DNA of 35,106 nt from Candidatus Acetocimmeria pyornia. GTDB taxonomy: Bacteria > Bacillota > Sulfobacillia > UBA3575. The translations under genes and the position numbers were made by a program. This document shows, in pieces, positions 12,730 to 35,106 of the stretch (position 1 is its first letter; each line of letters begins with the position of its first letter). The notes under the pieces were generated by a model that saw only the letters and a list, made by a program, of their open reading frames with translations, was not told the DNA's origin and searched no databases. The DNA lies in contig SESX01000007.1 in the NCBI GenBank assembly GCA_004367365.1, positions 1-35,106 on the forward strand, read 5' to 3'.

Positions 12730-12737
12730 AACTGAAC

Positions 12738-12789
12738 AGCCACGGGTGTTCCTTTGAGACCAGCAATCAAAGCTGGCCTTGGCTTTTTT
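12738..12789 (+). terminator. Intrinsic terminator after the SDR gene
   Basis: An outer stem AGCCA/TGGCT encloses an inner hairpin CCAGC-AATCAAA-GCTGG and is followed directly by a run of T (TTTTT). It lies 8 bases after the stop codon. Confidence 0.6.
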
Positions 12790-14901: not shown

Positions 14902-14980
14902 GGCGTTGATTAAGCGCGCCCAGCGCAATTTTAGAACCTGTTGATGAAGGTAAAAGAGCTTGTGGGGGCCATGGAGATTA

Positions 14981-14991
14981 TATACATTATA
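14981..14991 (+). promoter_or_regulatory. Candidate activator site, copy 1 (TATACATTATA)
   Basis: An exact 11-base match to the sequence at 15089-15099. It lies about 230 bases upstream of the -24 element and could be a binding site of the sigma-54 activator encoded just before it. Confidence 0.35.
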
Positions 14992-15088
14992 GCCGTACGT
15001 CTAAAAAGTATACAAAGAAAGGAGTGGTGTTGCGCTGTTTCATAAGGATGGGCTTCTAACAATTTAACCAAGAAACCTGTCTACAATC

Positions 15089-15099
15089 TATACATTATA
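15089..15099 (+). promoter_or_regulatory. Candidate activator site, copy 2 (TATACATTATA)
   Basis: The second exact copy, 108 bases after the first and about 120 bases upstream of the -24 element, a usual distance for sigma-54 enhancers. The stretch is A+T-rich, so chance is not excluded. Confidence 0.35.
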
Positions 15100-15219
15100 T
15101 ATCTAATCTAAATATAAACACGGTGCTGAGGGTGCCTTGCGGGGTTTAGATTTAGATAAAGGTTGCGAGTGGTCGGGTGGAACCGCGGGGCAGGTATTCC
15201 TTCTGGTACTTGGTAATCT

Positions 15220-15234
15220 TGGCGCGATTTTTGC
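15220..15234 (+). promoter_or_regulatory. Sigma-54 (-24/-12) promoter for the BCCT transporter
   Basis: TGGCGCG-ATTT-TTGC fits the consensus TGGCACG-N4-TTGC with one mismatch and the required GG-N10-GC spacing. It lies between the sigma-54 activator gene and the BCCT gene. A transcript from here would have a leader of about 240 bases. Confidence 0.65.
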
Positions 15235-15484
15235 GATAAAGGGTTTGTGTGGTAGTAGCTGTAACCCAAATCAAAACCTACCTACCGCGGGTCTACGTGT
15301 ACTTGGAGGAATGTCGAGAAACATCAAGCGGCATGCCTTGGCGCAAGAAGGGAGGGGGTAAAGGAAAGCAAGAGATATGCGAATTTTCGAACGATGGAGT
15401 AGTGACAGAGGCGATGCAGCTGAAGAAGTTCAGAAAGTGGTATTAACAACAAATTACAAAATCTTGTGATCGGAGGTAGGTGTG

Positions 15485-17068
15485 ATGCAAAAAACCAGTG
15501 TGGATTGGCAAACATTTTTACCCACGCTAATTGTCTTGGCATTACTCTCTGTCTCCATTGCCATTAATCCTGAAGGAGCGGGCGAAGCTGTCAATTCAAT
15601 GTTGGCCTTTATTACAAATCAATTTGGCTGGTCTTTTGAACTTTTTGTCCTGGGGATATTTTTCTTCTTGATGTGGTTAGCTTTTGGACCTTACGGAAAA
15701 GTAAAGCTGGGTACACCTGATGATGAGCCGGAGTTTTCATATTTTACCTGGATCGCGATGTTGTTTTGCAGTGGAATTGGTACTACCTTGTTGTACTGGT
15801 CTATTATCGAACCGATGTATTATCTCCAAGGACCACCGGTAGGCGTACAGCCTGGTTTTGAAGCAGGCTCGACTGTTGCAGCGGAATGGGCCGCCACGTA
15901 CGGGTTATTTCACTGGGGGTTCTCCGCGTGGGCTGTGTATGCCATTCCGACACTACCAATCGCTTATGCACTTTACGTAAAGAAAATACCGGTTCTGAGG
16001 TTAAGTGCTGCCTGCAGGGGTGTCCTAGGTAAGCATACAGATGGTGTTATTGGTATAGCTATCGATGTACTCGCCATGTTTGGTATCGTAGGTGGTGTTG
16101 GAACTGCATTAGGTCTTGGGGTCCCGCTGATTTCGACTGAAATCAATGAAATCTTCGGCATCCCAGATACTTTCGGGCTGCAAATAGCGGTAATCTTGAT
16201 TTGGTTGTCCATCTTTGGAACCAGCGTGTACCTAGGTTTATATAAAGGAATCGCAAAGCTGTCTAATTTCACCGTATACTTGGCCCTTGGCTTACTTGCA
16301 TACGCATTCCTGGCTGGCCCCACGATGTACATCCTGAACCTAGCTACCAACAGTGTTGGCTTAGTCTTTGATAACTTTTTCCGCCTCAGCATGTGGACTG
16401 ACCCAATAGCAGAAGGAGGATTTCCACAAGGCTGGACAACTTTTTATTGGGCCTGGTGGCTTGCTTTGGCGCCTTTGATGGGTATCTTCGTTGCTCGAAT
16501 TTCAAAAGGGCGGACCATAAAGGAAGTAGTAATTGCTGAAACGGTATGGGGAACCCTGGGTTGCTGGGTGTTCTTCTTCGTTTTTGGTGGCTATACACTT
16601 AATTTGGAGCTGAACCAGATATTGTCCGTCAGCTCCATCATGTCAGAAAGCGGGACAACAAGGGCTGTTGTTGAGGTTCTCAAGACGTTACCCCTGCCAG
16701 GGCTCGTGATGCTCGTAACTTTGGTAATTTCATTTGTATTTTCTGGAACCACGTATGATTCCGCGGCCTATACGCTTGCCAGCGGCACAACTAAGGGCAT
16801 CGGTCTTGGACAGGAACAACCTCCACGGTGGTTCAGGGCGCTGTGGGCGGTTATTATTACAGTTGTCGCAATTGCATTAATGCTCATCGGTGGATTGAAG
16901 GTTCTTCAGCTGTCATCTGTCGTCGCGGCATTTCCGTTAATACCAGTGTTTGTCATCATGGCCGTATCGTTTGTGAAATGGCTCCATGAAGACCATGGCA
17001 AGTACCTAGCTCCCTCGGCACGCAGTGTTGACCTGGGCAGCGGTTCAAGTCCATCGCTGGATGCTTAA
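15485..17068 (+). CDS. BCCT-family transporter (betaine/carnitine/choline)
   Basis: This 527-residue membrane protein has about 12 hydrophobic helices and the BCCT signatures. These are the glycine-rich segment with LLYWSIIEPMYYLQG, the HWGFSAWAVYAIP helix, and the tryptophan-rich FYWAWWLALAPLMGIF followed by ARISKGRT. The family imports or exchanges trimethylammonium compounds (glycine betaine, carnitine, choline) or related zwitterions at the cell membrane. There is no long regulatory C-terminal tail as in osmosensing BetP, which favours a catabolic role. The ATG at 15485 is 7 bases after GGAGGT; the track uses the GTG just before. A sigma-54 promoter and the preceding activator suggest substrate induction. 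It probably supplies the substrate for the BKACE/dehydrogenase block. Confidence 0.93.
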   Translation: MQKTSVDWQTFLPTLIVLALLSVSIAINPEGAGEAVNSMLAFITNQFGWSFELFVLGIFFFLMWLAFGPYGKVKLGTPDDEPEFSYFTWIAMLFCSGIGTTLLYWSIIEPMYYLQGPPVGVQPGFEAGSTVAAEWAATYGLFHWGFSAWAVYAIPTLPIAYALYVKKIPVLRLSAACRGVLGKHTDGVIGIAIDVLAMFGIVGGVGTALGLGVPLISTEINEIFGIPDTFGLQIAVILIWLSIFGTSVYLGLYKGIAKLSNFTVYLALGLLAYAFLAGPTMYILNLATNSVGLVFDNFFRLSMWTDPIAEGGFPQGWTTFYWAWWLALAPLMGIFVARISKGRTIKEVVIAETVWGTLGCWVFFFVFGGYTLNLELNQILSVSSIMSESGTTRAVVEVLKTLPLPGLVMLVTLVISFVFSGTTYDSAAYTLASGTTKGIGLGQEQPPRWFRALWAVIITVVAIALMLIGGLKVLQLSSVVAAFPLIPVFVIMAVSFVKWLHEDHGKYLAPSARSVDLGSGSSPSLDA

Positions 17069-20500: not shown

Positions 20501-21616
20501 GTGAAAAGTAAAATAATTGCGATAGCCTTGCTTTTTCTGTTTGCCATCACCCTTTTCGGCTGCGCCCAGGCTGAGCAAACAACAACTGATAACGACAATA
20601 CTACAGCGCAAGCAGAACCCAAGGAAGTTATTACATGGAAAGTACAGGGTTTTACACCTGCAGGAACACTTTATGATGATTGGGGCAAGCACCTGGCAAA
20701 TCTAATTACCGAACTTTCAGGTGGCCGTTTGGTTATTGAGTGGTATCCATCAGGCGCTATTGTCCCAGCTTTTGAGGCTCCCGCTGCTGTTCGCGATGGC
20801 ATCTTAGATGCTGAATTCGGTTATTCGGGTATCTGGGCAGGCATTAAGTTTGCTGCCCCGTTGTTTACCGCTACTCCCGGACTTTTCAGTGATGCTCGCG
20901 ATATGCTAATGTGGCTCTGGCATGGTGGCGGAATGGAGCTATGGAGTGAGATGGTGGCAGACTACAACGTTGTGGTTTTCCCGGCCGGGCTCATTGATAG
21001 CGAGATTTTTATGTGGTCAAATGAACCCTTACGTACCCTGGAGGATTTGAAGGGCAAGAAGCTGCGTATGATGCCGCTGATGGGCAAGATCCTGGAGGAG
21101 AAAGGTTATTCCGTGGTCTTCTTGCCTGGCGGTGAGATTATTCCTAGCCTTGAAAGAGGGGTTATAGACGCTGCTGAATATAGTATACCAGCTTTCGATA
21201 TCACCTTGGGCTTTCAAGATGTGGCAAAATACTACCATTTCCCGGCCATTCACCAGCCTAGTGGTGTGCAAGAGTTCGTGATTAACAAGGATAAGTGGAA
21301 CGCCTTGCCTGATGATTTGAAGCGAATCGTAGAGTATGCGACCCAAATCAATTTGTTATACACCTGGACTCAGCAAGGAGCTCTAAATATAAAAGCGCTG
21401 GAAGAATTTGAGAAAATGGGCTTGGAGAAAGTTGTCATGGAAGAAGAAGCAGTAAAAGAAATGATGAGATGGATAGACGAATGGTTCGCAGAAAAAAGTA
21501 AAGAAGATCCCTTCTTGGCTCGGGTTCGTGAGTCTCAGATTGAGTTTGCTAAGTGGTGGTTTCCATATAAGCAATCAATGATGCTTCCATATCCTGACTG
21601 GGCTTTAGAAGAGTAA
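20501..21616 (+). CDS. TRAP transporter substrate-binding lipoprotein (DctP family)
   Basis: A 371-residue extracytoplasmic solute receptor. A signal peptide with lipobox LFGC places the lipidated Cys at residue 21, as expected for a Gram-positive cell. A Thr/Asn/Asp-rich linker follows, then the receptor fold. The segment KYYHFPAIHQPSGVQEFVINKDKW and the preceding AAEYSIPAFDITLGF resemble the mannitol/chloroaromatic and TakP-like subgroup that often binds 2-oxo or 2-hydroxy acids; the ligand cannot be fixed by eye. The GTG start has AAGGGGG about 13 bases upstream. It is followed, after an unusual 458-base gap, by the two membrane subunits. Confidence 0.93.
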   Translation: MKSKIIAIALLFLFAITLFGCAQAEQTTTDNDNTTAQAEPKEVITWKVQGFTPAGTLYDDWGKHLANLITELSGGRLVIEWYPSGAIVPAFEAPAAVRDGILDAEFGYSGIWAGIKFAAPLFTATPGLFSDARDMLMWLWHGGGMELWSEMVADYNVVVFPAGLIDSEIFMWSNEPLRTLEDLKGKKLRMMPLMGKILEEKGYSVVFLPGGEIIPSLERGVIDAAEYSIPAFDITLGFQDVAKYYHFPAIHQPSGVQEFVINKDKWNALPDDLKRIVEYATQINLLYTWTQQGALNIKALEEFEKMGLEKVVMEEEAVKEMMRWIDEWFAEKSKEDPFLARVRESQIEFAKWWFPYKQSMMLPYPDWALEE

Positions 21617-21655
21617 ATATGCAAGCTAGACCTTTCAAGAGGATCTGCTGACCTT

Positions 21656-22059
21656 AAAGGGCGGAGAAGGAGTCTAGAAGAATACATCCGGAGCCAGGCG
21701 TCCTCGGTACAGGTCAAATCTCTTACGATGCACTTAGCTGCCGAAGGGCAGGCAGGAGAGAGATTTCCCCCGAGGGGGCCTGGCTCATTACCCAGGGTTA
21801 CCCACCGGTTCTTCTAGGCTTGCCCGGGGCAGATAGGATTTTCTTGTGTGGCCGGGCGGGAGAGGTACTTGCGGCGAGCACAACCATCAGCCCGAAAGAT
21901 CGCCTGCTTCGATGAGCACCCGTCCGGAGCTCGGCCGAAGCCAGGCGGTGCTTAGTGAAGCTGGAGGCCGATAAAGGGGTTACCCTGGAGGACACGTGGT
22001 GCTGGACTGACCAATAGGAACTGGCCCGTAAGCAAGAACGTCAGAAGAAAGGATACAAG
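21656..22059 (+). pseudogene. Decayed-looking reading frame between TRAP P and Q genes
   Basis: One frame reads as protein-like sequence (ESRRIHPEPGVLGTG..., ITQGYPPVLLGLPGADRIFL) up to a TGA near 21916. It resumes in the same frame (SSAEARRCLVKLEADKGVTL), meets a TAG near 22015 and ends with a basic tail at a TAA near 22059. No start codon lies near the beginning. I do not recognise the family. It would explain why the P and Q genes are so far apart. Chance cannot be excluded. Confidence 0.35.
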
Positions 22060-22074
22060 TAAAGGAAGATGACT

Positions 22075-22599
22075 ATGAAAAAACTAAAATTTTTACTTGG
22101 CTTAATAAGCAGGTTTAACGAAAGAGTAGGAAGTTACTTTGCTTGTTGGCTGATCTTCCCCTTGATACTGGTAATCACTTACGATGTGATTTTTCGCTAT
22201 TTTTTTAACAAGACTAGTATCTGGGGTTATGATATGGCATGGATGCTTTACGCTGCGTTTGTTTTTCTAGGTGGTGCCTATACACATGTCCATGAAGGCC
22301 ATGTAAAAGTTGATATCATTTACAACCTTTTTTCGGCACGTGTTCGTGCATTAATAGATGTTATTTGCCACCTAGTGTTTTTCTTTCCTGCTTTTATTGC
22401 GTTAACTCTCACCAGTTACAACCTGGCGTACAAAGCCTGGATATTTTCAGAACGCTCTCCCTATACTAACTGGCAGCCTCATACCGGACCGATAAAGACT
22501 ATCTTAGTGATAAGTATCTTACTCATGTTGTTTCAAGGGATAGTAGTATTTTCCACTCAATTGATAACTCTAGTGAAAGGAGAAGACCATGAGTCCTGA
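22075..22599 (+). CDS. TRAP transporter small permease (DctQ family)
   Basis: A 174-residue membrane protein with four hydrophobic helices, the DctQ layout. The family segment DVIFRYFFNKTSIWGYDMAW and the HVHEGHVKVDI loop are typical. It bridges the binding protein and the large permease. Of two in-frame ATGs (22069, 22075), the second is 6 bases after AAGGAAG and is preferred. Its end overlaps the start of the M subunit by 11 bases, showing translational coupling. Confidence 0.93.
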   Translation: MKKLKFLLGLISRFNERVGSYFACWLIFPLILVITYDVIFRYFFNKTSIWGYDMAWMLYAAFVFLGGAYTHVHEGHVKVDIIYNLFSARVRALIDVICHLVFFFPAFIALTLTSYNLAYKAWIFSERSPYTNWQPHTGPIKTILVISILLMLFQGIVVFSTQLITLVKGEDHES

Positions 22600-23905
22600 A
22601 ATTTTAACTCTACTGATGTTCTTGGGGATTTTAGTTGGAGTATTTGCCGGCTTTCCTATTGGTTTTACCCTGGGTGGGTTAGCTCTTATCTTTGGTTATC
22701 TCGGCTGGGGCCCTCAAATTGTCCCCCTTTTTGCCTCCCAAGCCTACGGCTTAATGACGAATTTTGTGATCATTGCTGTTCCCTTGTTTGTATTTATGGG
22801 ATGTATGCTGGAACAGTCTGGAATCGCCGAGCAGGCCTTTGATGTGATCTATAAGTGGTTTGGCAGAATAAAAGGAGGACTAGCTTTAGCTACTGTAGTA
22901 ATTAGTACACTATTTGCCGCCTGTACTGGTATTGTGGGAGCTTCAGTGACCACGATGGGCCTGATAGCTTTACCTTCAATGTTAAGCCGCGGTTACGATA
23001 AATCCCTAGCTACTGGCACTGTAGCTGCCGGAGGGACCCTGGGAATATTAATACCACCCAGTATTATGCTTATTCTCTATGGTCCGATGGCAGGTGTCTC
23101 TGTTGTGGAACTTTTTGCTGCTGCCATTATCCCGGGTTTACTTTTAGCCGGACTTTATTCTTTATATATCTTCATTAGATGCCAGTTACAACCTGATTTA
23201 GCCCCTATCAGCCCTGAAGAAGGCCGTGAGACAATATCACTAATTTCCCTACTGGTCAGCATGAAGACCTTTCTTCCTTTTATAGTTCTTATATTAGCTG
23301 TTTTAGGAGCGATTTTTTTCGGTATTACTGCTCCTACAGAGGCTGCTGGTTTAGGTGCTCTCGGCAGCATCATTATTGCAGCAGCTCATCGTAAATTAAC
23401 GTTTAAGACGATGTACGAAGTGAGCAAAACTACGCTACGAGTATCTTCCATGATCATCTTTGTTGCCTTGGGTGCTTACACCTTTACCGCTGTCTTTTTT
23501 GGTATTGGTGGTGGGAGAATTGTCGCTAACTTTATCAGCGGGTTAGGCCTAGGTGCCTACGGGGTTTTGGCTGTTGTCTTGTTTCTTACTTTCTTACTGG
23601 GTATGTTCATTGACTGGGTAGGTATTTTGCTGATTATTGTTCCTATCTTTATCCCGATTTTGAAGATGTATGGATTTGATCCTTTATGGTCGGGTATGCT
23701 CATCATGATTACCTTACAATCATCTTTTCTTACTCCGCCGTTCGCTTATGCACTTTTTTATATTAGAAGTATAACATCCAAAGAGGTAGAATTAATTGAT
23801 ATTTACAAAGGAGTGGTTCCTTTTGTTTCCTTGCAATTGATAGGACTAGTTCTTTCTATATTATTCCCACAAATTATCACCTGGCTCCCTGGAATCATAA
23901 AGTGA
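22589..23905 (+). CDS. TRAP transporter large permease (DctM family)
   Basis: A 438-residue membrane protein with about 12 helices; it performs sodium-coupled transport of the substrate delivered by the binding protein. Family motifs include GFPIGFTLGG near the N-terminus, GGTLGILIPPSIMLILYG in the middle and GMFIDWVGILLIIVPIF in the second half. The ATG follows AAAGGAGAAG. It closes the TRAP operon and a terminator-like structure follows. Confidence 0.95.
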   Translation: MSPEILTLLMFLGILVGVFAGFPIGFTLGGLALIFGYLGWGPQIVPLFASQAYGLMTNFVIIAVPLFVFMGCMLEQSGIAEQAFDVIYKWFGRIKGGLALATVVISTLFAACTGIVGASVTTMGLIALPSMLSRGYDKSLATGTVAAGGTLGILIPPSIMLILYGPMAGVSVVELFAAAIIPGLLLAGLYSLYIFIRCQLQPDLAPISPEEGRETISLISLLVSMKTFLPFIVLILAVLGAIFFGITAPTEAAGLGALGSIIIAAAHRKLTFKTMYEVSKTTLRVSSMIIFVALGAYTFTAVFFGIGGGRIVANFISGLGLGAYGVLAVVLFLTFLLGMFIDWVGILLIIVPIFIPILKMYGFDPLWSGMLIMITLQSSFLTPPFAYALFYIRSITSKEVELIDIYKGVVPFVSLQLIGLVLSILFPQIITWLPGIIK

Positions 23906-24551: not shown

Positions 24552-25604
24552 GTGAAGCTCTTCAATTTAGGGACTGTCCCCAATTTTGACTCCATGGTTA
24601 GCTTCCACGCCCTGGCGCGCATGGGAATCGAGTCCTTGGTGGTGGTTTCACCGAAAACCCCCTACGTGAGTGTGGGGTATTTTCAGGACACGGCCAGGGT
24701 TTTAGATGTCGACCGGTGCCGGGCCTTGAACTTGCCCATTATCCGGCGGGAAGTAGGTGGAGGGTGTGTCCTTCTTGATGAGAACCAGGTGTTTTATCAC
24801 GTGATTCTTAGAAAGGATAATCCCATCCTCCCAAGGACCATCGACGGGATTTACCGCAAGTTTTCCCAACCGCCTATCAACACCTATGCTCACTTTGGGG
24901 TAAAGGTTCATTTCAAACCAGTTAATGACTTGGTTACTCCTGAAGGTAAGAAAATCGCGGGAGAGGGAGGCGCCAATATTGGCGATTGCATGGTCTTTGT
25001 AGGGAGCATCATCATGGATTTTAACGTCAAGATGATGGCCCAGATTTTACGGCTTCCTGACGAGAAATTTCGGGACAAGGTTTACAAGACCATGGAAAAC
25101 AGTATTTCATCCCTGAAGGAAGAACTGGGGCAGACTCCGCGCCGGGAAGAGGTAGAAGAGGTGCTGGTGGAGGAGTTTCGTAAAATCCTCGGCCCGCTGG
25201 AAGAGAGTTCATTAACCCCTGAAATCAAATCCCAAATGCAACTGGTGGAAAAAGAACTCACCGCAGAAAACTTTTTATTTGACGAGCGTTTCCAACGCCA
25301 TGAGGCGATAACCATCAAAGCCGGTTCCTATATCGGATACGGTAATTACAAGGCCAAAGGGGGCCTGATTTCCACTACCGTCACTCTCAACGATGACAGA
25401 ATAGAGGCAGCGAGCATCTCGGGGGACTTTACTCTCAACCCCAAGGAGGCCATAACCCTCTTGGAAAGATGCCTGGATGGGGTTGCTCCATGCCAGGAGG
25501 CGGTGCACCGAGCCTTCAGGCGTGTCATTGAAGCCAACCATTTAAGTATTCCCGGGGTCGACGCTGAGGATTTGAGCCGTGCCGTAATGGATGCCATCGG
25601 GTAG
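24552..25604 (+). CDS. lplA: Lipoate-protein ligase A family protein (two-domain)
   Basis: A 350-residue protein with the biotin/lipoate ligase fold. The lipoate-binding RREVGGGCVLLDE (LplA RRxxGGGxVxHD motif, with Leu-Asp replacing His-Asp), NDLVTPEGKKIAGEGG with the catalytic-type Lys, and the C-terminal LplA domain (SYIGYGNYKAKGGLISTTV) are present. It would activate lipoate with ATP and attach it to lipoyl domains. The GTG at 24552 has GGGAGGTGAG upstream. It opens a row that contains an E2, a GcvH-like carrier, LipB and LipA, so scavenging and synthesis of lipoate occur side by side. The His-to-Leu change in the motif and an acidic central insertion (about 185-225) could mark a specialised ligase or an amidotransferase. 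Confidence 0.88.
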   Translation: MKLFNLGTVPNFDSMVSFHALARMGIESLVVVSPKTPYVSVGYFQDTARVLDVDRCRALNLPIIRREVGGGCVLLDENQVFYHVILRKDNPILPRTIDGIYRKFSQPPINTYAHFGVKVHFKPVNDLVTPEGKKIAGEGGANIGDCMVFVGSIIMDFNVKMMAQILRLPDEKFRDKVYKTMENSISSLKEELGQTPRREEVEEVLVEEFRKILGPLEESSLTPEIKSQMQLVEKELTAENFLFDERFQRHEAITIKAGSYIGYGNYKAKGGLISTTVTLNDDRIEAASISGDFTLNPKEAITLLERCLDGVAPCQEAVHRAFRRVIEANHLSIPGVDAEDLSRAVMDAIG

Positions 25605-25883
25605 TTGCTGGAGGACCAGGCCCTGACCGCGGCAACAAGGTGCTCAAGGGGGTGGATAACGGGGAAAGCTGGCGCCCCCTCGAGGGGCCCAAAAAAAGGG
25701 TGCGGCATGATCAATGTGAGGGATTACGATGGCGGTACGAGTAGGACTGGTATCGGTTCATGGAGGCTTGTGTTCAGGGTTTGAAAGAGCCGGATGGCAC
25801 CAGGCAGTCCATGCTGATTAACCTTGTGGCCAGTAAGGCATGGTACTTTGCTAGAACCCATTGAGAACCGGGGAGGGAGAATA
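25605..25883 (+). other. Leader region of the aco genes with a possible 34-aa ORF
   Basis: The region includes a palindrome CCCCTCGAGGGG near 25677-25688 and an ATG frame at 25760-25864 (MEACVQGLKEPDGTRQ...). That frame ends 20 bases before the E1 alpha start. The frame looks protein-like also upstream of the ATG apart from one TAG, so it may be the tail of a decayed gene or a leader peptide. Confidence 0.3.
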
Positions 25884-26846
25884 ATGGCGCTTTCTCAAGA
25901 GAAGCTCCTTGAACTTTACAGGAAAATGGTCACCATCAGGGTGTTCGAGGAAAACACGGCAGAGCTTTTTGCAAAGGGCGAGATTCCCGGCTTCGTCCAC
26001 CTCTATGTTGGTGAAGAGGCGACGGCAGTCGGGGTTATTGCCCACTTAAAGGATCATGACTACATTGCCAGCACCCACCGGGGCCACGGCCACCTCATTG
26101 CCCGTGGTGGTGACGTGAAGCAGATGTATGCTGAGTTGTTCGGCCGAAAAACCGGCTACTGCAAGGGAAAAGGAGGTTCCATGCATATTGCCGACTTGAG
26201 CCTGGGCTTTTTGGGGGCCAATGGTATTGTGGGAGCTGGTCTGCCCCTGATTGCCGGGGCGGCCTTTGCCTGCAAGTACCGCGGAGACGATGGTGTGGCC
26301 GTATGTTTCTTTGGTGATGGTGCTTCCAACCGGGGTACCTTCCATGAAGCCTTGAACATGGCGTCTATTTGGAAACTGCCCGCGATTTTCGTTTGTGAAA
26401 ACAACATGTACGCAATTTCTCTCAGCCAAGAGCTGCACCAAAACATTGATGACGTGGCTGACCGGGCAGCTGCCTACGGCCTTCCGGGCATCAGCGTGGA
26501 TGGTAACGACCTCTTTGCCGTTTACGAGGCGGCGGAAGAGGCGGTCAAACGGGCCCGTAACGGCGACGGGCCAACCTTGATCGAAAGCAAGACCTACAGG
26601 TGGCGCGGGCATTTTGAAGGCGATCCCGTTGTTTACAGGACGGAAGAAGAACTCCAAGCCTGGAAGAAGAAAGACCCGATTGAACGGGCCAAAAAGCGGA
26701 TGATGGAAACAGGTGTTTTGACCGAGGAGGAAGACAAGGCCATTTGGGAAGAAGTCAGGAGCGAGATCCAAGAGGGTATTGAGTTTGCCAAGAACAGCCC
26801 GTTGCCTGAAGAAGAAAGCCTCCTGGAAGATGTTTACTGTGAATAG
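25884..26846 (+). CDS. acoA: Acetoin / 2-oxoacid dehydrogenase E1 alpha subunit
   Basis: This thiamine-diphosphate-dependent E1 alpha of 320 residues has the length usual for AcoA. The TPP/Mg motif is GDGASNRGTFHEALNMA through CENN; GKGGSMHIAD and the YRWRGHFEGDP segment are also family hallmarks. With E1 beta it cleaves acetoin or a 2-oxoacid and passes the acyl group to the lipoyl arm of E2. The ATG at 25884 follows GGAGGGAG; the longer track ORF has no family residues before it. The order A-B-X-C with acoX supports acetoin rather than pyruvate as substrate, though this rests on gene order. Confidence 0.93.
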   Translation: MALSQEKLLELYRKMVTIRVFEENTAELFAKGEIPGFVHLYVGEEATAVGVIAHLKDHDYIASTHRGHGHLIARGGDVKQMYAELFGRKTGYCKGKGGSMHIADLSLGFLGANGIVGAGLPLIAGAAFACKYRGDDGVAVCFFGDGASNRGTFHEALNMASIWKLPAIFVCENNMYAISLSQELHQNIDDVADRAAAYGLPGISVDGNDLFAVYEAAEEAVKRARNGDGPTLIESKTYRWRGHFEGDPVVYRTEEELQAWKKKDPIERAKKRMMETGVLTEEEDKAIWEEVRSEIQEGIEFAKNSPLPEEESLLEDVYCE

Positions 26847-26878: not shown

Positions 26879-27850
26879 ATGCCGGAGATGACCTACCTGG
26901 AAGCGATTAACACCGCCCTGCGGGAGGAAATGTCCCGGGATCCCAGTGTTTTTGTCCTTGGTGAAGATGTAGGGGTGTTTGGGGGTTGTTTTGGGGTTAC
27001 CCAGGGGCTGCTGGATGCCTTCGGACCGGAACGGGTCTTGGATACCCCCATTTCCGAGACGGCCATCATCGGGGCCTCGGTGGGCGCAGCCGCCGCCGGG
27101 TTAAGGCCGGTAGCCGAAATCATGTTCATGGACTTCATGGGTGTCTGCATGGACGAAATATTCAACCAGGCAGCGAAAATACGCTACATGTTCGGTGGTA
27201 AGGCAGCCATTCCGATGACCCTTCGAACCCCTTGTGGGGCGGGTCTTGGGGCAGCGGCCCAGCATTCACAAAGTATGGAAGCCTGGTTTGCCCATATCCC
27301 TGGTCTAAAGGTGGTCATGCCTTCGACCCCTGCTGATGCCAAGGGGCTCCTCACCAGTGCCATTAGGGATGACAACCCCGTGATCTTTATTGAGCACAAG
27401 ATGCTCTACGGTGTCAAAGGTTCGGTTCCGGACGGCGAGTACGCCATTCCCCTGGGCAAAGGGGATGTCAAGCGGGAGGGAAGTGACGTGACAGTGGTGG
27501 CCACCTCCCTGATGGTGCACAAAGCCCTGGCTGCCGCGGAGACCTTGGCTGAGGAAGGGGTCGAGGTCGAAGTGGTTGACCCGCGTTGTCTTGTGCCCCT
27601 GGATCAGGACACGATTCTCAAGTCGGTGGCGAAGACGGGTAAGCTGGTGGTGGTCCATGAAGCAGTCAAGAGCGGTGGTATCGGCGGTGAAATTGCTGCC
27701 ATCGTGGCTGAAGAGGGTTTTGATTTCCTGGATGCACCCATCAGGCGTATCGGGGCGCCCTTTGCGCCAATTCCCTTTGCTTCGAACCTAGAAAAGGCCT
27801 ATATCCCCAGTGAAGAGACCATCATTGAAGCGGTAAGGTCTTTAGCATAG
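26879..27850 (+). CDS. acoB: Acetoin / 2-oxoacid dehydrogenase E1 beta subunit
   Basis: A 323-residue transketolase-like E1 beta. Signatures include [18 protein letters not shown] at the N-terminus, the [17 protein letters not shown] segment, [10 protein letters not shown], and the C-terminal transketolase domain ([28 protein letters not shown]). It pairs with the preceding subunit to form an alpha2beta2 E1; the spacing of 32 bases shows co-transcription. It is followed by a hairpin that may reduce transcription into acoX. Confidence 0.94.
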
Positions 27851-27863: not shown

Positions 27864-27915
27864 GGGAATGGACGGCTTCAGGGTGGAAGCCTGGGCCGTT
27901 CATTCCCTCTTTGTG
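27864..27915 (+). terminator. Hairpin / attenuator between acoB and acoX
   Basis: GGGAATGGACGGC and GCCGTTCATTCCC make a 13-bp stem with one G-T pair, followed by TCTTTGTG. An inner alternative, GGCTTC/GAAGCC, competes with it. The T-run is imperfect, so partial termination is likely. Confidence 0.5.
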
Positions 27916-27940
27916 CAGAATGCGGGGAAGGGGTGTCAGA

Positions 27941-28954
27941 GTGCCCACTGTCGGGATTATTGCCAATCCGGCCTCCGGCAAGGATATCAGGCGTTTGGTG
28001 GCCCACGCCACTGTCTTTGATAACCTTGAGAAAGTGAATATTGTCCGGAGAGTTTTGCTCGGCCTTGAGGCGGTAGGGGTTACCCGGCTCTTATTCATGC
28101 CTGACTATTTTGGCATTATCCAGCGGGCCCTGGAAGGGCTTACCGGTGACTACTCTCTGAAGATGGACGTGGAATGCTTGAAAATGCCCCTTACCGGAGA
28201 ACAAGAGGACTCCCTGGTGGCGGCTAGGCTCCTGGCAGAAGAGAAGGTCGGGTGTATCGTCACCCTGGGTGGGGATGGGACCAACCGGGTGGTAGCCAAA
28301 GGCTGCCGGCAGGTACCGCTTGTACCGATCTCTACCGGGACCAATAATGTTTTCCCATCCATGGTGGAAGGTACCATCGCCGGCATGGCCGCCGGCTTGG
28401 TGGCCACCGGGAAGGTTGCGCCGGAGGTGGCCCTGACCAGGAACAAAAAGATTGACATTTACGTTAACGGCTCCTGGGAAGACATGGCCCTGGTTGATGT
28501 GGTAGTCCTGAAAGAACAATTTGTCGGCTCACGGGCTATTTGGCATGAAAGGAAAATCAAACAAGTTGTCGCTACCTGCGGTGAAGCCACCAATCTTGGC
28601 ATCACGTCCATGATCGGCGCCTTGCATCCCCTCCCGCCCGCTGACCCCCGGGGTATGGCTGTGAAGGTCGGTACCGGCAGGACCAAAGTGTTGTCTGCCC
28701 TTGGACCGGGTTTGATAAAATCCGTGTCTATAGCTGAATACCGTTTTCTTGACCCGGGTGAAAGGGTGGTGGTGGAGACCATACCGTGTGTGATGGCTGT
28801 TGATGGTGAACGTGAGGTGGAGGTCGGAAGCCGGGACCGGGTGGAACTGGTACTCAACTGTGATGGTCCGCTTGTTGTAAATATTAAGGCTACCATGGAT
28901 GCAGCTGCCCGGCGGGGTGTCTTCAGGTGTACCCAGGGTCATGGGAGCTCGTAG
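27941..28954 (+). CDS. acoX: AcoX-like NAD kinase-fold protein
   Basis: A 337-residue protein with the ATP-NAD kinase fold: GIIANPASGKDIRR at the N-terminus and the diagnostic GGDGTNRVVAKG around residue 107, then PISTGTNNVFPS. AcoX is found in acetoin dehydrogenase operons; its activity is not established. The GTG at 27941 is chosen because GAAGGGGT lies 6 bases upstream and the family N-terminus follows. It is 21 bases from the E2 gene. Confidence 0.88.
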   Translation: MPTVGIIANPASGKDIRRLVAHATVFDNLEKVNIVRRVLLGLEAVGVTRLLFMPDYFGIIQRALEGLTGDYSLKMDVECLKMPLTGEQEDSLVAARLLAEEKVGCIVTLGGDGTNRVVAKGCRQVPLVPISTGTNNVFPSMVEGTIAGMAAGLVATGKVAPEVALTRNKKIDIYVNGSWEDMALVDVVVLKEQFVGSRAIWHERKIKQVVATCGEATNLGITSMIGALHPLPPADPRGMAVKVGTGRTKVLSALGPGLIKSVSIAEYRFLDPGERVVVETIPCVMAVDGEREVEVGSRDRVELVLNCDGPLVVNIKATMDAAARRGVFRCTQGHGSS

Positions 28955-28975
28955 TTTCTCTTGGAGGGGAGAATG

Positions 28976-30562
28976 ATGGCCGTAAAAGTAGTGATGCCGA
29001 AACTCGGTCTCACCATGAAAAAAGGGAAGGTTGCCAGGTGGCTCAAAGAAGAGGGCCAGGAGGTTACCAGGGGCGAGGACCTGCTGGAGATTGTAACGGA
29101 GAAAATTGCCAGTACGATGGAAGCCCCGGCCAGCGGTATCCTCTACAAGATCCTGGCCCCAAAGGGGAGTATTGTCCCCGTCGTCTCCCCGGTTGCCGTC
29201 ATCGCCGAACCGGGTGATGATGAAAAGACCCTCCAACAAATGGTAAAAGAAGCTGAGGCTGAACTGGCCAACACCCGGGTGGAGGCCAGGGAGGCGAAGA
29301 AGACCGTCAAAGAGCCCAAGAAAAGAGGGGTTGACCTCATCCGGACGGGGAAGGCCCGCAGGATATCCCCGCGGGCCCGGCGCCTGGCGGAGGGAAAAGG
29401 GGTTGACCTGGATTACGTGCCCGGTACGGGTCCCGGCGGGAGGGTGACGGAAAAGGACGTCAGGGAATACCTCGAGGAACTAGACCGGGAGAAAGAGCCA
29501 GAAGTAATTCCGTTGGAAGGGATGCGCGGTATTATTGCGGAGCGCATGACCGAAAGCCACCACCGGGCGGCAAGGGTCACCATTTTGCAGGAGGTGGATG
29601 TTACCAATCTTCAGGACCTGAGGGTCAAGATCAATGAGGTCTTCCAGCAGCAGGGCCGAGGCAAGGTGTCCTATACAGACCTGATTGCCGTCCTGGTTGC
29701 CCAGGCCCTTAAGGAACATCCCCGGCTTAACGGCCGGGTACTTGAAGACAGGGTTGAACTTTACAGCGGGGTCAACATGGGCATCGCCGTTGCCCTTGAT
29801 GACGGGCTCGTGGTACCGGTGATTCACAAGGCACACCGCCTTTCCCTGGAACAAATGTCGGAAAGGATCAAGTCTGCGGCCCAAAGGGCGAGGGACGGGG
29901 ACCTGGAACCGGAAGAACTCGAGGGTGGTACCTTTACCCTTACCAACCTGGGGATGTTCGGGGTTGAGGGCTTTACACCCCTCATTAATCCCCCCGAAAC
30001 GGCCATCCTGGGTCTTGGCACCATTTCCGAAAAACCGATGCTCAAGGATGGAATCCTGGAGCAGCGTCTTTGTATGACCCTGAGCCTCTCCTTTGACCAC
30101 CGTGCTGTTGATGGAGCGCCGGCGGCCCTGTTCTTGAGCCGGGTAAAGGAGATGATGGAAAACCCTCATTTGCCCTTTCAGATGGATGCCCCCCAAGTGA
30201 GTCGGCCCCTGGTGGCCGCTGGAAGGCGGGACCCTCGGGCCTTGGTCCAGGCCTTTGCTGATGGAATGGAGTGGCTGAACGACGAGGCACCAGACCTGGC
30301 CCTAGGCTTCGATGCTTTGATGGCCCCTGTTTTTGCCGAGGGTGAGCTTTCCACCAGGGTGAAAGAGCTCATTGCGGTAGCCCTCTCGGTCCATATCAGG
30401 TGCGAGTACTGTATTCCCTACCATGTTCACAAAGCTGTAGAGGCCGGAGCTCATCCTGATGAGATCCTGGAAGCGGCCGCGGTGGCATTGGGCTTTGGCG
30501 GCGGGTCGGCCATGGCCTACGTGGTAACCCTGGTCAAGGAATGTATCGAGGCCTTTTCTTAA
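28976..30562 (+). CDS. acoC: Dihydrolipoamide acyltransferase (E2) fused to a C-terminal AhpD/CMD domain
   Basis: A single ORF of 528 residues. Residues 1-76 are a lipoyl domain with the lipoyl-Lys in IVTEKIAS; about 120-160 are the E3/E1-binding domain (RRISPRARRLAEG, GRVTEKDV). About 178-395 are the acyltransferase core with the catalytic SFDHRAVDG. About 415-528 are a carboxymuconolactone decarboxylase/AhpD-like domain. In that domain KELIAVALSVHIRCEYCIPYH reproduces the AhpD pattern Glu-x11-Cys-x2-Cys-x3-His (Cys 476 and 479). AhpD is a lipoamide-dependent peroxidase that in Mycobacterium takes electrons from a lipoylated E2, so the fusion would place peroxidase and lipoyl arm in one chain. 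The ATG at 28976 is 6 bases after GGAGGGG. No E3 gene is in the window. Confidence 0.93.
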   Translation: MAVKVVMPKLGLTMKKGKVARWLKEEGQEVTRGEDLLEIVTEKIASTMEAPASGILYKILAPKGSIVPVVSPVAVIAEPGDDEKTLQQMVKEAEAELANTRVEAREAKKTVKEPKKRGVDLIRTGKARRISPRARRLAEGKGVDLDYVPGTGPGGRVTEKDVREYLEELDREKEPEVIPLEGMRGIIAERMTESHHRAARVTILQEVDVTNLQDLRVKINEVFQQQGRGKVSYTDLIAVLVAQALKEHPRLNGRVLEDRVELYSGVNMGIAVALDDGLVVPVIHKAHRLSLEQMSERIKSAAQRARDGDLEPEELEGGTFTLTNLGMFGVEGFTPLINPPETAILGLGTISEKPMLKDGILEQRLCMTLSLSFDHRAVDGAPAALFLSRVKEMMENPHLPFQMDAPQVSRPLVAAGRRDPRALVQAFADGMEWLNDEAPDLALGFDALMAPVFAEGELSTRVKELIAVALSVHIRCEYCIPYHVHKAVEAGAHPDEILEAAAVALGFGGGSAMAYVVTLVKECIEAFS

Positions 30563-30679: not shown

Positions 30680-31393
30680 CTGGCAGGTAAGGTTTCTTAT
30701 CTGAACCTTGGTTTCATGGATTACGGGAAGGCTTACTGGATTCAAAAACGACTTCACCAAAGGCGGGTAGCCGGGCTAACCAGGGATGTGCTCATCCTGG
30801 TGGAGCATGCCCCGGTGCTTACCATGGGGCGTGACGCTGGGAGAGAGCATATCCTGGTCGGGGATGACGTGCTGCAAAGACACGGCATCTTAATCTACCA
30901 GGTGGAACGGGGCGGTGACGTAACCTACCACGGGCCTGGGCAGTTGGTAGGGTACCCGGTTCTTGACTTAACCCGGTGGGGCAGGGACCTGCACGGCTAC
31001 GTGAGGCGGCTCGAGGAAGTTATCATCAGAACCCTAGCCTGTTACGGGGTGACAGCGGGGCGTCGAGAGGGTTACCCGGGTGTCTGGGTAGGTGACAAAA
31101 AGGTTGCTGCCCTGGGGGTAGCGGTGAAGAGATGGGTGACCATGCACGGGTTCGCCTTCAACATCAACAGCCACCTGGAACACTTCCAGTTCATTGTGCC
31201 CTGTGGTATTTCCGAGTACGGGGTTACTTCCTTGGCCGAGGTTCTGGGCCAAGAACAGGATTTTCGGGAGGTGTCCCGGGTGCTCAAGAAGCAGTTTGCG
31301 GGGGTTTTTGGGATCGAACTGGTTCCGGTGGCCCTGGATGGTCTTCTTTTTGGGGACAAAGGTCTTCCGAAGACGGGTGGACCCAGCCCCTAG
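30680..31393 (+). CDS. lipB: Octanoyltransferase LipB (probable non-ATG start)
   Basis: LipB moves octanoate from acyl-carrier protein to lipoyl domains. The core motif RGGDVTYHGPGQLVGYPV, the Lys-containing KKVAALGVAVKRWVTMHG and the Cys of PCGISEYGVTS (catalytic Lys/Cys dyad) are all present. The ORF track starts at the ATG 30716, but the conserved first strand of the family (YLNLGFMDYGKA) begins upstream of it. In frame there is no ATG, GTG or TTG; a CTG at 30680 lies 7 bases after GGAGGGGG and gives a normal N-terminus of about 237 residues. I therefore propose a CTG start, with 30716 as fallback. Confidence 0.88.
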   Translation: MAGKVSYLNLGFMDYGKAYWIQKRLHQRRVAGLTRDVLILVEHAPVLTMGRDAGREHILVGDDVLQRHGILIYQVERGGDVTYHGPGQLVGYPVLDLTRWGRDLHGYVRRLEEVIIRTLACYGVTAGRREGYPGVWVGDKKVAALGVAVKRWVTMHGFAFNINSHLEHFQFIVPCGISEYGVTSLAEVLGQEQDFREVSRVLKKQFAGVFGIELVPVALDGLLFGDKGLPKTGGPSP

Positions 31394-31644: not shown

Positions 31645-32574
31645 GTGACAAGGAAGATGAAAAGGTGGCTCAGTTTTTCCAAGAAGCCCATAAAATACAG
31701 CCAAGAGCGGGGGCCAAGGCCGGCGTGGCTGAAGGTACCTGTTCCCGACCAAGGGGCACTGCACGCGATGGAGACCCTGCTGCGTGGTGCCGGCTTGCAC
31801 ACGGTGTGTGAAGGGGCCTTGTGCCCCAACATTGGCGAGTGTTTTGCAAAAGGGACGGTTACCTTCATGATCCTCGGTGACACCTGTACCCGACACTGTC
31901 GTTTTTGTGGGGTGGGCAAGGGCCAGCCCCAAGTGCCCCGGGAAGAGGAACCCGAGAAGGTGGCCTGGGCGACACGGCAGCTGCGGCTGCAGCACGTGGT
32001 GATTACTGCGGTGACCCGGGATGACCTGCCCGAGGGTGGGGCAGAACACTTTGCCCGTACGGTGAAGGCCATTCACAGGATCGCGCCTGGAACAACGGTG
32101 GAGGTGCTGGTTCCAGATTTTCAAGGTTCCGAAAAGGCCCTCAGCCTAGTGGTGGATGCCCAACCGGAAATAATTGGCCATAACGTGGAAACCGTACCTC
32201 GGCTCTACCCTGAGGTGAGGCCAGGCGCGGATTACGGGCGCTCCCTGAACTTGTTGGAAAGGGTGAAGAGGCTGGACCCTGGTATCAAGACCAAATCGGG
32301 GATGATGCTGGGATTGGGAGAGAAGGAAGCAGAGGCTTTGGGGGTATTGAGGGATTTAAGGGGAGTCGGCTGTGATTTTGTCACCTTGGGGCAGTACCTG
32401 CGGCCCACGGGAAAACAGCTGCCGGTACGGCAATACATCACCATCCAGGCCTTTGCGGAGTTGGGACGGCGGGCCAGGGAAATGGGCTTTGCCCACGTGG
32501 TATCCATGCCTTTGGCCAGGAGTTCGTACCAAGCTGGGGAAGCTGTTACAAGCCTTGCTGGGGGAGAGAAGTAA
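31645..32574 (+). CDS. lipA: Lipoyl synthase LipA (radical SAM)
   Basis: A 309-residue radical-SAM enzyme that inserts two sulfurs into protein-bound octanoyl groups. The auxiliary-cluster motif CEGALCPNIGEC, the radical-SAM motif CTRHCRFC and the C-terminal RSSYQA (the Ser ligand of the auxiliary cluster) are all intact. The GTG start at 31645 is adopted from the track, with AAGGGG upstream. LipA and LipB together give de novo lipoylation of the neighbouring E2 and GcvH-like carriers. Confidence 0.96.
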   Translation: MTRKMKRWLSFSKKPIKYSQERGPRPAWLKVPVPDQGALHAMETLLRGAGLHTVCEGALCPNIGECFAKGTVTFMILGDTCTRHCRFCGVGKGQPQVPREEEPEKVAWATRQLRLQHVVITAVTRDDLPEGGAEHFARTVKAIHRIAPGTTVEVLVPDFQGSEKALSLVVDAQPEIIGHNVETVPRLYPEVRPGADYGRSLNLLERVKRLDPGIKTKSGMMLGLGEKEAEALGVLRDLRGVGCDFVTLGQYLRPTGKQLPVRQYITIQAFAELGRRAREMGFAHVVSMPLARSSYQAGEAVTSLAGGEK

Positions 32575-32737: not shown

Positions 32738-33178
32738 ATGGCCGTCGTCAAGGGTTACGAAATTCCCGAAGGGCTTTACTATACCAAAGACCACGCCTGG
32801 CTCAAAGTTGAGGGTGGTAACAAGGTTCGCGTTGGTTTAAACGATTTTGCCCAAAAGCTAGCGGGCAAGATCTCTTATGTTAAGGTGCCAAGGGTCGGTA
32901 AGGAGGTAACCCATGGTAAGGTCCTTTTCTCGCTGCAGGCGAAAAAATGGACCGGTAAAATCATGGTGCCCCTGGCCGGGATGATTGTGGAGGCTAACCG
33001 GGACTTACTTCGTCGTCCTGGGCTGCTAAACCAGGACTGTTACGGAAAGGGCTGGGTGGCTGTCATCAAGGCTGCCAACCTGGCGCAGGATTTAGCCCGG
33101 CACTTGACCGGTGAAGCCGCTCACCGTTGGATAAGGAAAGAAGTAGCCCGGGTGGAGGCTGAGAGGGGAAAGAAGTGA
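32738..33178 (+). CDS. GcvH-like lipoyl carrier protein
   Basis: A 146-residue protein with the hybrid-barrel fold of glycine cleavage H protein. The lipoyl lysine aligns with Lys70 in LFSLQAKKWTGK. The normal GcvH surrounding ESVKA is changed to QAKKW, so recognition by ligases may differ. The C-terminal half (RRPGLLNQDCYGKGWVAVIK) is conserved, followed by an extra basic helix. No gcvT or gcvP is in the window, so classical glycine cleavage is doubtful. GGAGGTG lies upstream of the ATG at 32738; the track ORF is 21 codons too long. Its stop overlaps the GTG of the flavoprotein gene by 4 bases, implying co-translation and a possible redox partnership. Confidence 0.88.
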   Translation: MAVVKGYEIPEGLYYTKDHAWLKVEGGNKVRVGLNDFAQKLAGKISYVKVPRVGKEVTHGKVLFSLQAKKWTGKIMVPLAGMIVEANRDLLRRPGLLNQDCYGKGWVAVIKAANLAQDLARHLTGEAAHRWIRKEVARVEAERGKK

Positions 33179-34647
33179 TTCAGCTACCCAAGAACCTAAA
33201 GGAACGGTTTGGGTCACGATGCACAGATTCACGGTTTGAATGTTCCTTTTACGGCCGAGATGTTGCCTACATTCCACCTTTCTTGGTGCGGCTCCTCACC
33301 CGGCCGGTACCAGACATGGTCTTCAGACCCCTTTGTGCCGAGGAAGTGAGTGAAATCATCGCCTTTGCAGGCCGCCGGAGGCTGGCGGTGACCCCCAGGG
33401 CCGGAGGTTCCACGGCCCTGGGAAGCTGTGTGCCGGTCAAGGCCGGCATCGTCATTGATTTGAATGGTCTGAAAGGTGTACTAGGTTTTGAGGCGGGCAA
33501 GGAAAAGGTCAAGGTGTTGCCTGGTACCACCTGGGCAGAACTGGACGGTTACCTGCGGCGCAGAGGTTATTGTGTGCGTTCCTATCCCAGCAGTTTCCAT
33601 GTTGCCACCATCGGTGGGTGGCTCTCCGGGGGAGGATGCGGGGTCGGCAGTCTTCGTTATGGTCCCCTGGTGAACCAGGTGAGTTCCCTGGAGGTGGTTC
33701 TTCCTTCAGGGGAAATAAGGAGGGTAACTAGGCATTCCCAGCCCTGCGTGTCGTGGTTTGCCGCCGCTGAAGGGACACTTGGGGTCATCACAGGGGTAGA
33801 ACTCAAGGTGAGGACGCTGCCTGAAGCGACGCGGCATTTCTTGCTGGCCAGCAAGGAACCTGGCGGCCTTTTTGAAGCGGCCAGGGATTGTGCCCGCGGG
33901 TTGGCCCACCCTGTCTACAATCTCCATTACAACAGCCGGTCCCTGAACTGGGCCTTGCAAACGGGTGGACTGGCACCTGAACCACTGGGCAGGTACCATA
34001 CCTTGGCCGTGAGCTTGGAGGGAACCCCGACAGACCTGGACCGGGCAGGGGAGTCTATCTGGTCGATGGTCAAAGGGTATGGATTGACAATGTTGGATGA
34101 CTCTTTGGCCCTCGAAGAATGGGAGAACAGGTTCCGGCTTTTGCGCATCAGGCGTCTTTACCCTTCCCTGCTTGCCTGTGAACTGCTGGTGCCGACAGCC
34201 TCCTGCCAGCAATACCTTGAGGAGGTGGAGAACCTGGGACGGCAGGCCGGGGTCAGGATGCTCACCTATGCTCACATCATTTCCCGGGACCAGGCCCTGG
34301 TGATGACCCTCTATTACTCAGATGAGGGAAACCCCTTCAGGTACCTATGCGATGCCAGCTTAACGGCCCGCATTTACCGCACCGGGTGCAGGCTTGGGGG
34401 AGGACCCTACACCATTGGTTTCTGGAATACACCTTACTTGCATTTACAGAAAATCCACCACCCGGACAGACTGCAGGAATTGCGGCAGCGCAAGTTGTTG
34501 CTTGATCCCCAAGGGATTCTGAATCCTGGGAAGGTTTATGGGCCAACACCCCTTTTATCCCCGGTACTGTTCGGAATCGGGCTCAAGGCGGCAGGGTTTT
34601 TGCGGGTATTTCTCCACGAGAGGGTGCGGTGTGATGGTTGGGAATAA
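33175..34647 (+). CDS. GlcD-like FAD-linked oxidase
   Basis: A 490-residue flavoprotein of the PCMH/vanillyl-alcohol oxidase superfamily. FAD-binding segments are PRAGGSTALGSCVPV, VLPGTTWAELDGYL and the diphosphate region IGGWLSGGGCGVGSLRYGP; the C-terminal LLDPQGILNPGKVYGP is typical of the glycolate/D-lactate dehydrogenase branch. Such proteins oxidise 2-hydroxy acids and pass electrons to a GlcF-like Fe-S subunit, which is the next gene (14-base overlap). It is itself coupled by a GTGA overlap to the GcvH-like gene. The substrate is unknown; the coupling to a lipoyl carrier suggests a lipoyl-linked reaction. Confidence 0.88.
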   Translation: MIQLPKNLKERFGSRCTDSRFECSFYGRDVAYIPPFLVRLLTRPVPDMVFRPLCAEEVSEIIAFAGRRRLAVTPRAGGSTALGSCVPVKAGIVIDLNGLKGVLGFEAGKEKVKVLPGTTWAELDGYLRRRGYCVRSYPSSFHVATIGGWLSGGGCGVGSLRYGPLVNQVSSLEVVLPSGEIRRVTRHSQPCVSWFAAAEGTLGVITGVELKVRTLPEATRHFLLASKEPGGLFEAARDCARGLAHPVYNLHYNSRSLNWALQTGGLAPEPLGRYHTLAVSLEGTPTDLDRAGESIWSMVKGYGLTMLDDSLALEEWENRFRLLRIRRLYPSLLACELLVPTASCQQYLEEVENLGRQAGVRMLTYAHIISRDQALVMTLYYSDEGNPFRYLCDASLTARIYRTGCRLGGGPYTIGFWNTPYLHLQKIHHPDRLQELRQRKLLLDPQGILNPGKVYGPTPLLSPVLFGIGLKAAGFLRVFLHERVRCDGWE

Positions 34648-35106
34648 GGCTCTCTTTCAAGGCCTGGAAGCTGAAGTAAGGGCCTGTGCCACCTGTGGTT
34701 CCTGCCGTTCGGCTTGTCCTGTGTACAGTGAAATCGGATGGGAATCGGCGGCTCCCCGGGGGAAGATAACCATGGCGAAAAGGATTCTTGTCGACAGGCA
34801 AAAAGGTGTTCTTTCCGAGCAGTACGTCAAGAGGGTGTTTCAGTGCACCCTGTGTGGTGGTTGTGCCGTTGTTTGCCCTGTTCAGATTGATACCCGGGAA
34901 TTGTTGCGTGGGCTGCGGAGGTATCTCGAAAAGCGCGGCCGGAACCCCCGGGTTTTTGATGAACTATCGGCCCGGATCCGTCAGAACAGGAATATCTCCG
35001 GCCAGGCAAATGAAGGGCGCTTGGACTGGGCTGAAGACCTGGAAGAGCCGGTGGGTATCGTGTCCACTGGGGCACCGGGTTTCCAAGACGACCCTTGGGA
35101 AACCAA
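34634..35106 (+). CDS. GlcF-like 2[4Fe-4S] oxidoreductase, N-terminal part (3' end outside window)
   Basis: This open frame is not in the ORF track because its stop lies beyond the window. It begins MVGNKALFQGLEAEVR and carries two ferredoxin motifs, CATCGSCRSACP and CTLCGGCAVVCP, as in the Fe-S subunits of glycolate oxidase and heterodisulfide-reductase-type complexes. The CCG domains expected further on are not visible. It overlaps the flavoprotein gene by 14 bases, so the two are probably subunits of one enzyme. Confidence 0.85.
   Translation, partial: MVGNKALFQGLEAEVRACATCGSCRSACPVYSEIGWESAAPRGKITMAKRILVDRQKGVLSEQYVKRVFQCTLCGGCAVVCPVQIDTRELLRGLRRYLEKRGRNPRVFDELSARIRQNRNISGQANEGRLDWAEDLEEPVGIVSTGAPGFQDDPWET

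Follow-up and report, generated by a model that had tools for sequence, protein, structure and literature searches.

The lbpA locus

A gene for a predicted lipoyl carrier of the LbpA type (Q-K-W subtype, 146 residues) is located on the forward strand at positions 32738..33178 of the window, the whole stretch of 35,106 nucleotides that was analysed here, and its product matches the Pfam family GCV_H with 108 bits (E 2.9e-31). It begins with an ATG at 32738 preceded by a strong Shine-Dalgarno sequence, GGAGGT, and its stop codon (33176-33178) overlaps the GTG start of a flavoprotein gene at 33175 (GTGA). A promoter and terminator scan gave no signal above chance. The lipoyl-lysine context reads Q67-A68-K69-K70-W71 (32936..32950, forward strand), with K70 as the predicted lipoyl lysine. 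In the AlphaFold2 model of the protein (pLDDT 95.4), residues 69-70 form the turn of the lipoyl hairpin with strands 62-68 and 71-76 on either side, and the best Foldseek matches of this model were observed to be GcvH structures, the top five at 1.1-1.8 Å. K70, W71 and G73 are invariant across the 28 rows of our alignment (A2) and, judging from the sequence, K70 should carry lipoic acid. A first-pass annotation had described a GcvH-like carrier with the altered site QAKKW and a start-stop overlap with a flavoprotein gene; the open reading frame, its coordinates and the GTGA overlap agree with this description, and the GCV_H fold and the position of K70 at the hairpin tip are confirmed.

The genes around lbpA are likewise on the forward strand. 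An LplA-like lipoate-protein ligase of the LbpA-linked type (24552..25604; LplA-B_cat) was found to be closest to LbpA-adjacent ligases at two other loci (L078 and L037, 46-47% identity), with 35-36% identity to sHdr-linked ligases and 30% to a LipM-like protein on contig C306. It is followed by E1 alpha of the AcoA/PdhA type (25824..26846; E1_dh, and 401 bits with TIGR03182 at a cut-off of 394), E1 beta of the AcoB type (26879..27850; Transket_pyr and Transketolase_C) and an AcoX-like protein with an NAD-kinase fold (27911..28954; NAD_kinase/DAGK_cat), which shares 71-66% identity with the AcoX proteins of the three operons whose layout is most similar. The E2 acyltransferase (28961..30562; Pfam Biotin_lipoyl, E3_binding, 2-oxoacid_dh and CMD) has a lipoyl domain and a C-terminal CMD domain with an AhpD-like CEYC motif. 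The LipB octanoyltransferase (30716..31393; above the TIGR00214 cut-off) and the LipA lipoyl synthase (31645..32574; 362.6 bits with TIGR00510, cut-off 310) are located between E2 and lbpA.

Downstream of lbpA are a GlcD-like FAD flavoprotein of the VAO/PCMH type (33175..34647; FAD_binding_4 and FAD-oxidase_C) and the N-terminal part of a GlcF/HdrD-like Fe-S protein (34634..35106; Fer4_8), which is truncated where the contig stops. The rest of the Fe-S protein is on contig C19, which overlaps the window end by 37 bp with a mismatch at the last window base. The complete protein has 408 residues and two CCG motifs (CCGFPL..CPSC and CCGGGG..CQQC), and on C19 its stop is followed by convergent genes. 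In fold, the flavoprotein belongs with D-lactate dehydrogenase and AGPS, the former being nearest (in a model with a pLDDT of only 76). It has HIISRDQ and GGGPYTIG where 2-hydroxyacid dehydrogenases carry HAGDGN and GEHG, two motifs that its kin at six other loci (L061, L078, L092, L094, L098 and L086) lack as well. A FAD_binding_4 flavoprotein also adjoins a CCG Fe-S protein in the lactate and glycolate oxidation systems GlcDF, LutABC and LctBCD, but the window differs from these in its GlcD motifs, in the participation of LbpA and in an operon without EtfAB. In the thiol:fumarate reductase TfrAB, a flavoprotein and a CCG Fe-S subunit couple dithiol/disulfide to flavin. TfrB was among the family matches in our window profile search, whereas the window flavoprotein belongs to another family and its pair would act on protein-bound lipoyl, not on CoM-SH and CoB-SH.

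E1, AcoX and E2 occur in the usual order of the acetoin dehydrogenase complex (E1 alpha, E1 beta, AcoX, E2 and E3), but the operon here has no E3 gene, carries a CMD domain on E2 and continues with LbpA, GlcD and CCG genes. This acetoin-dehydrogenase-type complex directly upstream, without an E3 gene, is likely to be a partner that the first-pass annotation had overlooked. The E1 subunits by themselves cannot tell acetoin from pyruvate. Acetoin as the substrate rests on homology, since neither a butanediol dehydrogenase nor AcoR was found beside the window locus; from the presence of AcoX and from the neighbours of the kin operons, the complex would by homology cleave acetoin.

A TRAP transporter (DctP at 20501, DctM at 22589 and a small DctQ-like ORF between them) is encoded at 20501-23905, ahead of the LplA and acetoin genes. 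A cluster at 7536-17068, likely of the carnitine/betaine type, holds genes for an AMP-binding CoA synthetase, BKACE, a 3-hydroxyacyl-CoA dehydrogenase, a sigma-54 regulator and a BCCT transporter. A lactate-racemase-like protein (Lar_N/DUF362) is encoded on the minus strand at 2087-3361, and a similar one was found on contig C262. Several HdrC-HdrB(-HdrA) clusters are present on contigs C201, C326, C262 and C137 of the source genome (G000), some with FlpD and hydrogenase-type subunits, and these have no LbpA.

Family placement of the predicted lipoyl carrier

Our alignments show that the sequences fall into three groups: GcvH with E[SA]VK[AST], sHdr LbpA with K-W and a cysteine near each end, and a Cys-less K-W group. 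The window protein scored 150.8 bits with the Cys-less K-W HMM, 121.9 with that of sHdr LbpA and 108.9 with that of GcvH, and its 93.6 bits with the NCBIfam gcvH equivalog are under the cut-off of 115.85. The K70-W71 pair is present within its GcvH fold; K-W was observed in nearly all LbpA rows and in no GcvH row. With a K-W motif, no N-terminal cysteine and a CCG Fe-S protein nearby it belongs to the Cys-less K-W group, and with Q-K-W followed by window-type GlcD and CCG genes to the Q-type within it. Nine Q-type rows, the window included, form a clade (support 99/93; inner nodes 100/98, 97/83 and 96/82) where seven members come from acetoin-type operons, and the highest identity among the nearest kin is 71% (G190). 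Glutamine at the third place ahead of the lipoyl lysine is common to all nine members, and the alanine and lysine in the two places after it are peculiar to the window protein. A one-off corruption of the lipoyl site is ruled out because the glutamine is clade-wide; the altered site reported in the first pass is therefore real but not singular to the window. The constancy of glutamine in place of glutamate might, as a guess, reflect ligase or docking specificity.

The GcvH clade (100/95) is separate from the window protein in the tree, and placement inside GcvH was rejected in the AU test (p=0.0015). This value had been 0.155 in a first tree with few kin and the window protein on a long branch, and it fell when close orthologues were added to the later tree and test. 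On the deep branch order, a grouping of GcvH with the Q clade was not rejected (p=0.38). The source genome (2.75 Mb, 327 contigs, 99.8% complete) encodes two GCV_H proteins, the window LbpA and an ESVK-type GcvH on contig C157, where gcvT-gcvH-gcvPA-gcvPB make up a complete operon with its own gcvH. The earlier statement that no gcvT or gcvP is near holds for the window but not for the genome. A function as glycine-cleavage H protein is ruled out by this separate operon together with the tree, and the proposal of a separate, non-GcvH role is upheld by the phylogeny; a gcvTP operon lacking its own gcvH, which would have spoken against such a role, was not found. GcvH resembles the window LbpA in fold (Foldseek E 3.6e-13 to 1onl) and in the position of the lysine, whereas the site reads ESVK[AST] in the former and QxxKW in the latter. 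PDB 5a35, which we take to be GcvH-L of the sirtuin/macrodomain operon, is likewise a stand-alone GcvH-like lipoyl protein, but it is 20% identical and macrodomain and sirtuin genes are absent at the window.

In the tree, the rows of sHdr LbpA cluster in a single clade with the window protein outside it, and a grouping with them was also rejected (AU p=0.026). These proteins (PMC6067878, PMC10332631) are like the window LbpA in their GcvH fold, the single lipoyl lysine followed by W, the stand-alone gene, a partner with CCG (HdrB-type) Fe-S sites and related LplA ligases. Their hallmark is two conserved cysteines, near the N and C terminus, with some archaea excepted (PMC6067878). Neither cysteine was found in the window protein, where Y7 occupies the N-terminal place and the tail is without Cys. 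Furthermore, no sHdr, DsrE or TusA genes were found in the window and contig C19, glutamine stands where sHdr LbpA has glutamate, and the partner is a GlcD-like protein with a double-CCG protein, linked to acetoin dehydrogenase. The missing cysteines and sHdr genes rule out an sHdr LbpA. The likeness to LbpA that had been suggested first is thus retained at the superfamily level (K-W, CCG partner and related LplA) and lost at the level of sHdr LbpA, from which the absent cysteines and the AU test separate it.

Recurrence of the operon and the wider family

The gene arrangement of the window was found to recur in at least six other Bacillota (G276, G231, G190, G439, G221 and G337). The shared layout consists of E1 alpha, E1 beta, AcoX, an E2 with a CxxC-bearing CMD domain fused or adjacent, usually lipoylation genes, LbpA, the GlcD-like protein and the double-CCG Fe-S protein. 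LplA, LipB and LipA are adjacent in the window, G231 and G190. The LbpA of the kin operons also has glutamine ahead of the lysine (QSGKWA), and the CCG gene is often followed by a second, E-type LbpA with LipS1/LipS2 or LplA. Several of these operons are flanked by a dehydrogenase whose best match is (R,R)-butanediol dehydrogenase (318 bits, against 200 for the next) and some by a GAF-sigma-54 regulator of the AcoR type. A search of 399 genomes from the phylum with the flavoprotein profile gave 15 loci that combine a stand-alone GlcD of the window type with a CCG gene. A K-W LbpA adjoins the window-type GlcD in at least 11 of these 15, and in 0/15 loci with fused or canonical GlcD/CCG. A GlcD in G017 (39% identical), which lies about 5 kb from an LbpA-like gene in opposite orientation, was left out of the counts.

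AcoX was used as a locus marker as it does not itself select for LbpA, and 26 AcoX-bearing dehydrogenase loci were read. LbpA and a CCG-type enzyme without E3 were observed at nine (the window, G190, G221, G231, G276, G337, G439, G529 and G258, the last over two contigs), E3 without LbpA at eight (G173, G189, G216, G266, G299, G325, G345 and G503) and neither at nine, some of them on short contigs. E3 and LbpA were never found together (0/26; Fisher one-sided p=0.016, for a small sample uncorrected for kinship). A CMD domain with CxxC was seen at the LbpA loci (for G258 in an ORF that is partly masked), whereas none of the eight E3 loci and two of the nine with neither have one. The acetoin operon of G529 has no GlcD, and LbpA is followed there by HdrC-HdrB-HdrA; the flavoprotein part differs, whereas LbpA and a CCG site are kept. 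At this locus (L288, G529:C1:2246500-2266400), the LbpA is encoded at 7133-7546 on the minus strand with an ESAKW site, a separate CMD gene and no E3.

Beyond these operons, 50 additional Cys-less K-W LbpA loci were obtained when bacterial and archaeal genomes were scanned; they come from Thermodesulfobacteriota, Myxococcota, Chloroflexota, Bacillota, Actinomycetota, Pseudomonadota and archaea. In 42 of the 50, LbpA has a CCG-type Fe-S protein no more than 5.5 kb away, compared with 0/27 GcvH controls, a proportion that characterises the family and is no independent test, since loci with CCG neighbours had supplied the query alignment. DsrE or TusA was found at three of the 50 loci, and gcv genes adjoin none. 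In several bacterial and archaeal phyla the related LbpAs accompany GlcD/CCG or HdrABC genes.

Several individual loci were read. In three Bacillota MAGs (L058, L093 and L095) the order MetV-MetF-LbpA-HdrC-HdrB-HdrA was observed together with a FlpD/MvhD-type gene (Pfam-checked in L093), with LbpA near 9001-9417 in L058 and L093 and at 5444-5914 in L095. The MetFV-HdrABC-MvhD complex has one partner still to be named (PMC5861303). LbpA is a candidate disulfide partner of this MTHFR-HdrABC complex, and the loci suggest a wider role for the LbpA family. At four loci (L035, L036, L075 and L103), LbpA and a canonical GlcD lie beside a lactate permease, LUD genes or the lactate racemase LarA, with CCG separate from GlcD in the first three and apparently fused to it in L103; by gene content, these are putative lactate-oxidation versions of the LbpA module. 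In Syntrophaceae and other former deltaproteobacteria (L054, L056, L059, L060 and L062), LbpA adjoins HdrC-HdrB-HdrA or a CCG Fe-S protein, and no sulfur-oxidation genes were found near LbpA at these five. A Pseudomonadota MAG (L086) encodes at 8995-9435 an LbpA with QSAKWI between two GlcD-CCG pairs, followed by LplA, LipS1, HdrB and LipS2, and the Q variant may therefore have arisen twice or predate the acetoin operon. In Candidatus Formimonas warabiya DCMF, which has a complete genome, GlcD-CCG-LbpA (L098, 6376-10431) is located between pterin-binding and URO-D-type proteins, and this strain is a possible experimental system.

A possible electron route and its meaning

E3 and NAD+ are taken to reoxidise the lipoyl groups of 2-oxoacid and acetoin dehydrogenases. 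We consider it fairly probable that LbpA here takes the place of dihydrolipoamide dehydrogenase by moving electrons between dihydrolipoyl-E2, their source, and the CCG/FAD pair, which receives them. E1 and E2 would yield acetyl-CoA and leave dihydrolipoyl-E2, from which two electrons would reach the lipoyl group on K70 of LbpA, probably through the CxxC of the E2-fused CMD domain. LbpA would then dock on the double-CCG Fe-S protein, where a non-cubane cluster site would oxidise the dithiol, and the electrons would move on over 4Fe-4S clusters, reach the FAD bound by the GlcD-like subunit and presumably pass to a further acceptor. The E0' of lipoamide is -0.29 V (quoted in PMC6067878). This reading draws on the hairpin-tip lysine with the invariant K-W and G73, on the recurring operon with its butanediol dehydrogenase and AcoR-type flanks in some copies, and on the exclusion between E3 and LbpA, which is paralleled by the CxxC CMD domain. 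It also draws on G529, where LbpA is found in the same place with a different CCG enzyme, on the CCG proteins near most Cys-less K-W LbpAs and on the window-type GlcD beside LbpA. Against a replacement of E3, a trans-encoded Lpd could serve E2. A bona fide Lpd is present in nearly every genome tested with the module, several sharing a contig with a canonical gcvH; the source genome has a single Lpd above the family cut-off, on contig C306, where it adjoins glyA and the LipM-like gene. In addition, the nine AcoX loci with neither gene indicate that E3 is not always linked.

GlcD-CCG might instead be a separate organic-acid or other dehydrogenase with LbpA as its electron acceptor, dihydrolipoyl-LbpA being reoxidised by Lpd and NAD+ and acetoin linked only via common lipoylation enzymes. 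LbpA-GlcD-CCG sets that lie without acetoin genes beside the lactate permease, LUD and racemase genes, the methyltransferase-like neighbours in L098 and the D-lactate dehydrogenase fold of GlcD would suit this arrangement, but the window-type GlcD lacks HAGDGN and GEHG, E3 is absent exactly at the LbpA-bearing loci, and G529 keeps LbpA with HdrCBA where GlcD is missing, and we regard it as unlikely. It is more doubtful still that LbpA is a maturation relay, octanoylated or lipoylated by LipB, LipA and LplA before it hands the group over to E2, a part played by GcvH in Bacillus subtilis. The adjacent lipoylation genes in the window, G231 and G190 fit such a relay; however, most of the 42 loci with a nearby CCG protein are without E2, LipB can act directly on E2, and the LbpA of sulfur oxidisers has no relay activity (PMC6067878). 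A sulfane-sulfur carrier similar to sHdr LbpA is very improbable, as the K-W superfamily, the CCG partner and the 35-36% ligase identity are shared but both cysteines are gone, the operon has no DsrE, TusA or sHdr genes and the sHdr LbpA clade excludes the window. An AhpD-like thiol relay of E2-CMD, LbpA and GlcD-CCG for peroxide or disulfide defence has equally little in its favour: a CxxC CMD is fused to E2 and a CMD gene lies near LbpA also in L078 and L194, but no peroxiredoxin was identified beside the module in the loci read and the constant partner is the CCG protein.

For the Cys-less LbpAs as a whole, we tentatively propose a general function as protein-bound dithiol/disulfide electron carriers, with which CCG-type (HdrB/HdrD-like) enzymes of non-methanogens could be physiologically paired. 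They might serve as an E3 stand-in, as a link to GlcD-type oxidases or as the disulfide of HdrABC, including the acetogen-type MetVF-HdrABC clusters. In the open-access literature (subscription papers and preprints being outside this scope), we found no description of a link between LbpA or GcvH and lactate, CCG, HdrABC or acetoin dehydrogenase outside one setting: within that searchable literature, LbpA was previously known to be tied to CCG enzymes only from sHdr sulfur oxidation. The acetoin operon thus possibly reoxidises lipoamide by a new route. If this is true, replacement of E3 by a lipoyl carrier and a heterodisulfide-reductase-like flavoprotein would be a different electron exit, and acetoin oxidation could be coupled to another acceptor. 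Where coenzymes M and B are absent, the wider family would offer a candidate, open to testing, for the disulfide that CCG and HdrABC enzymes naturally use.
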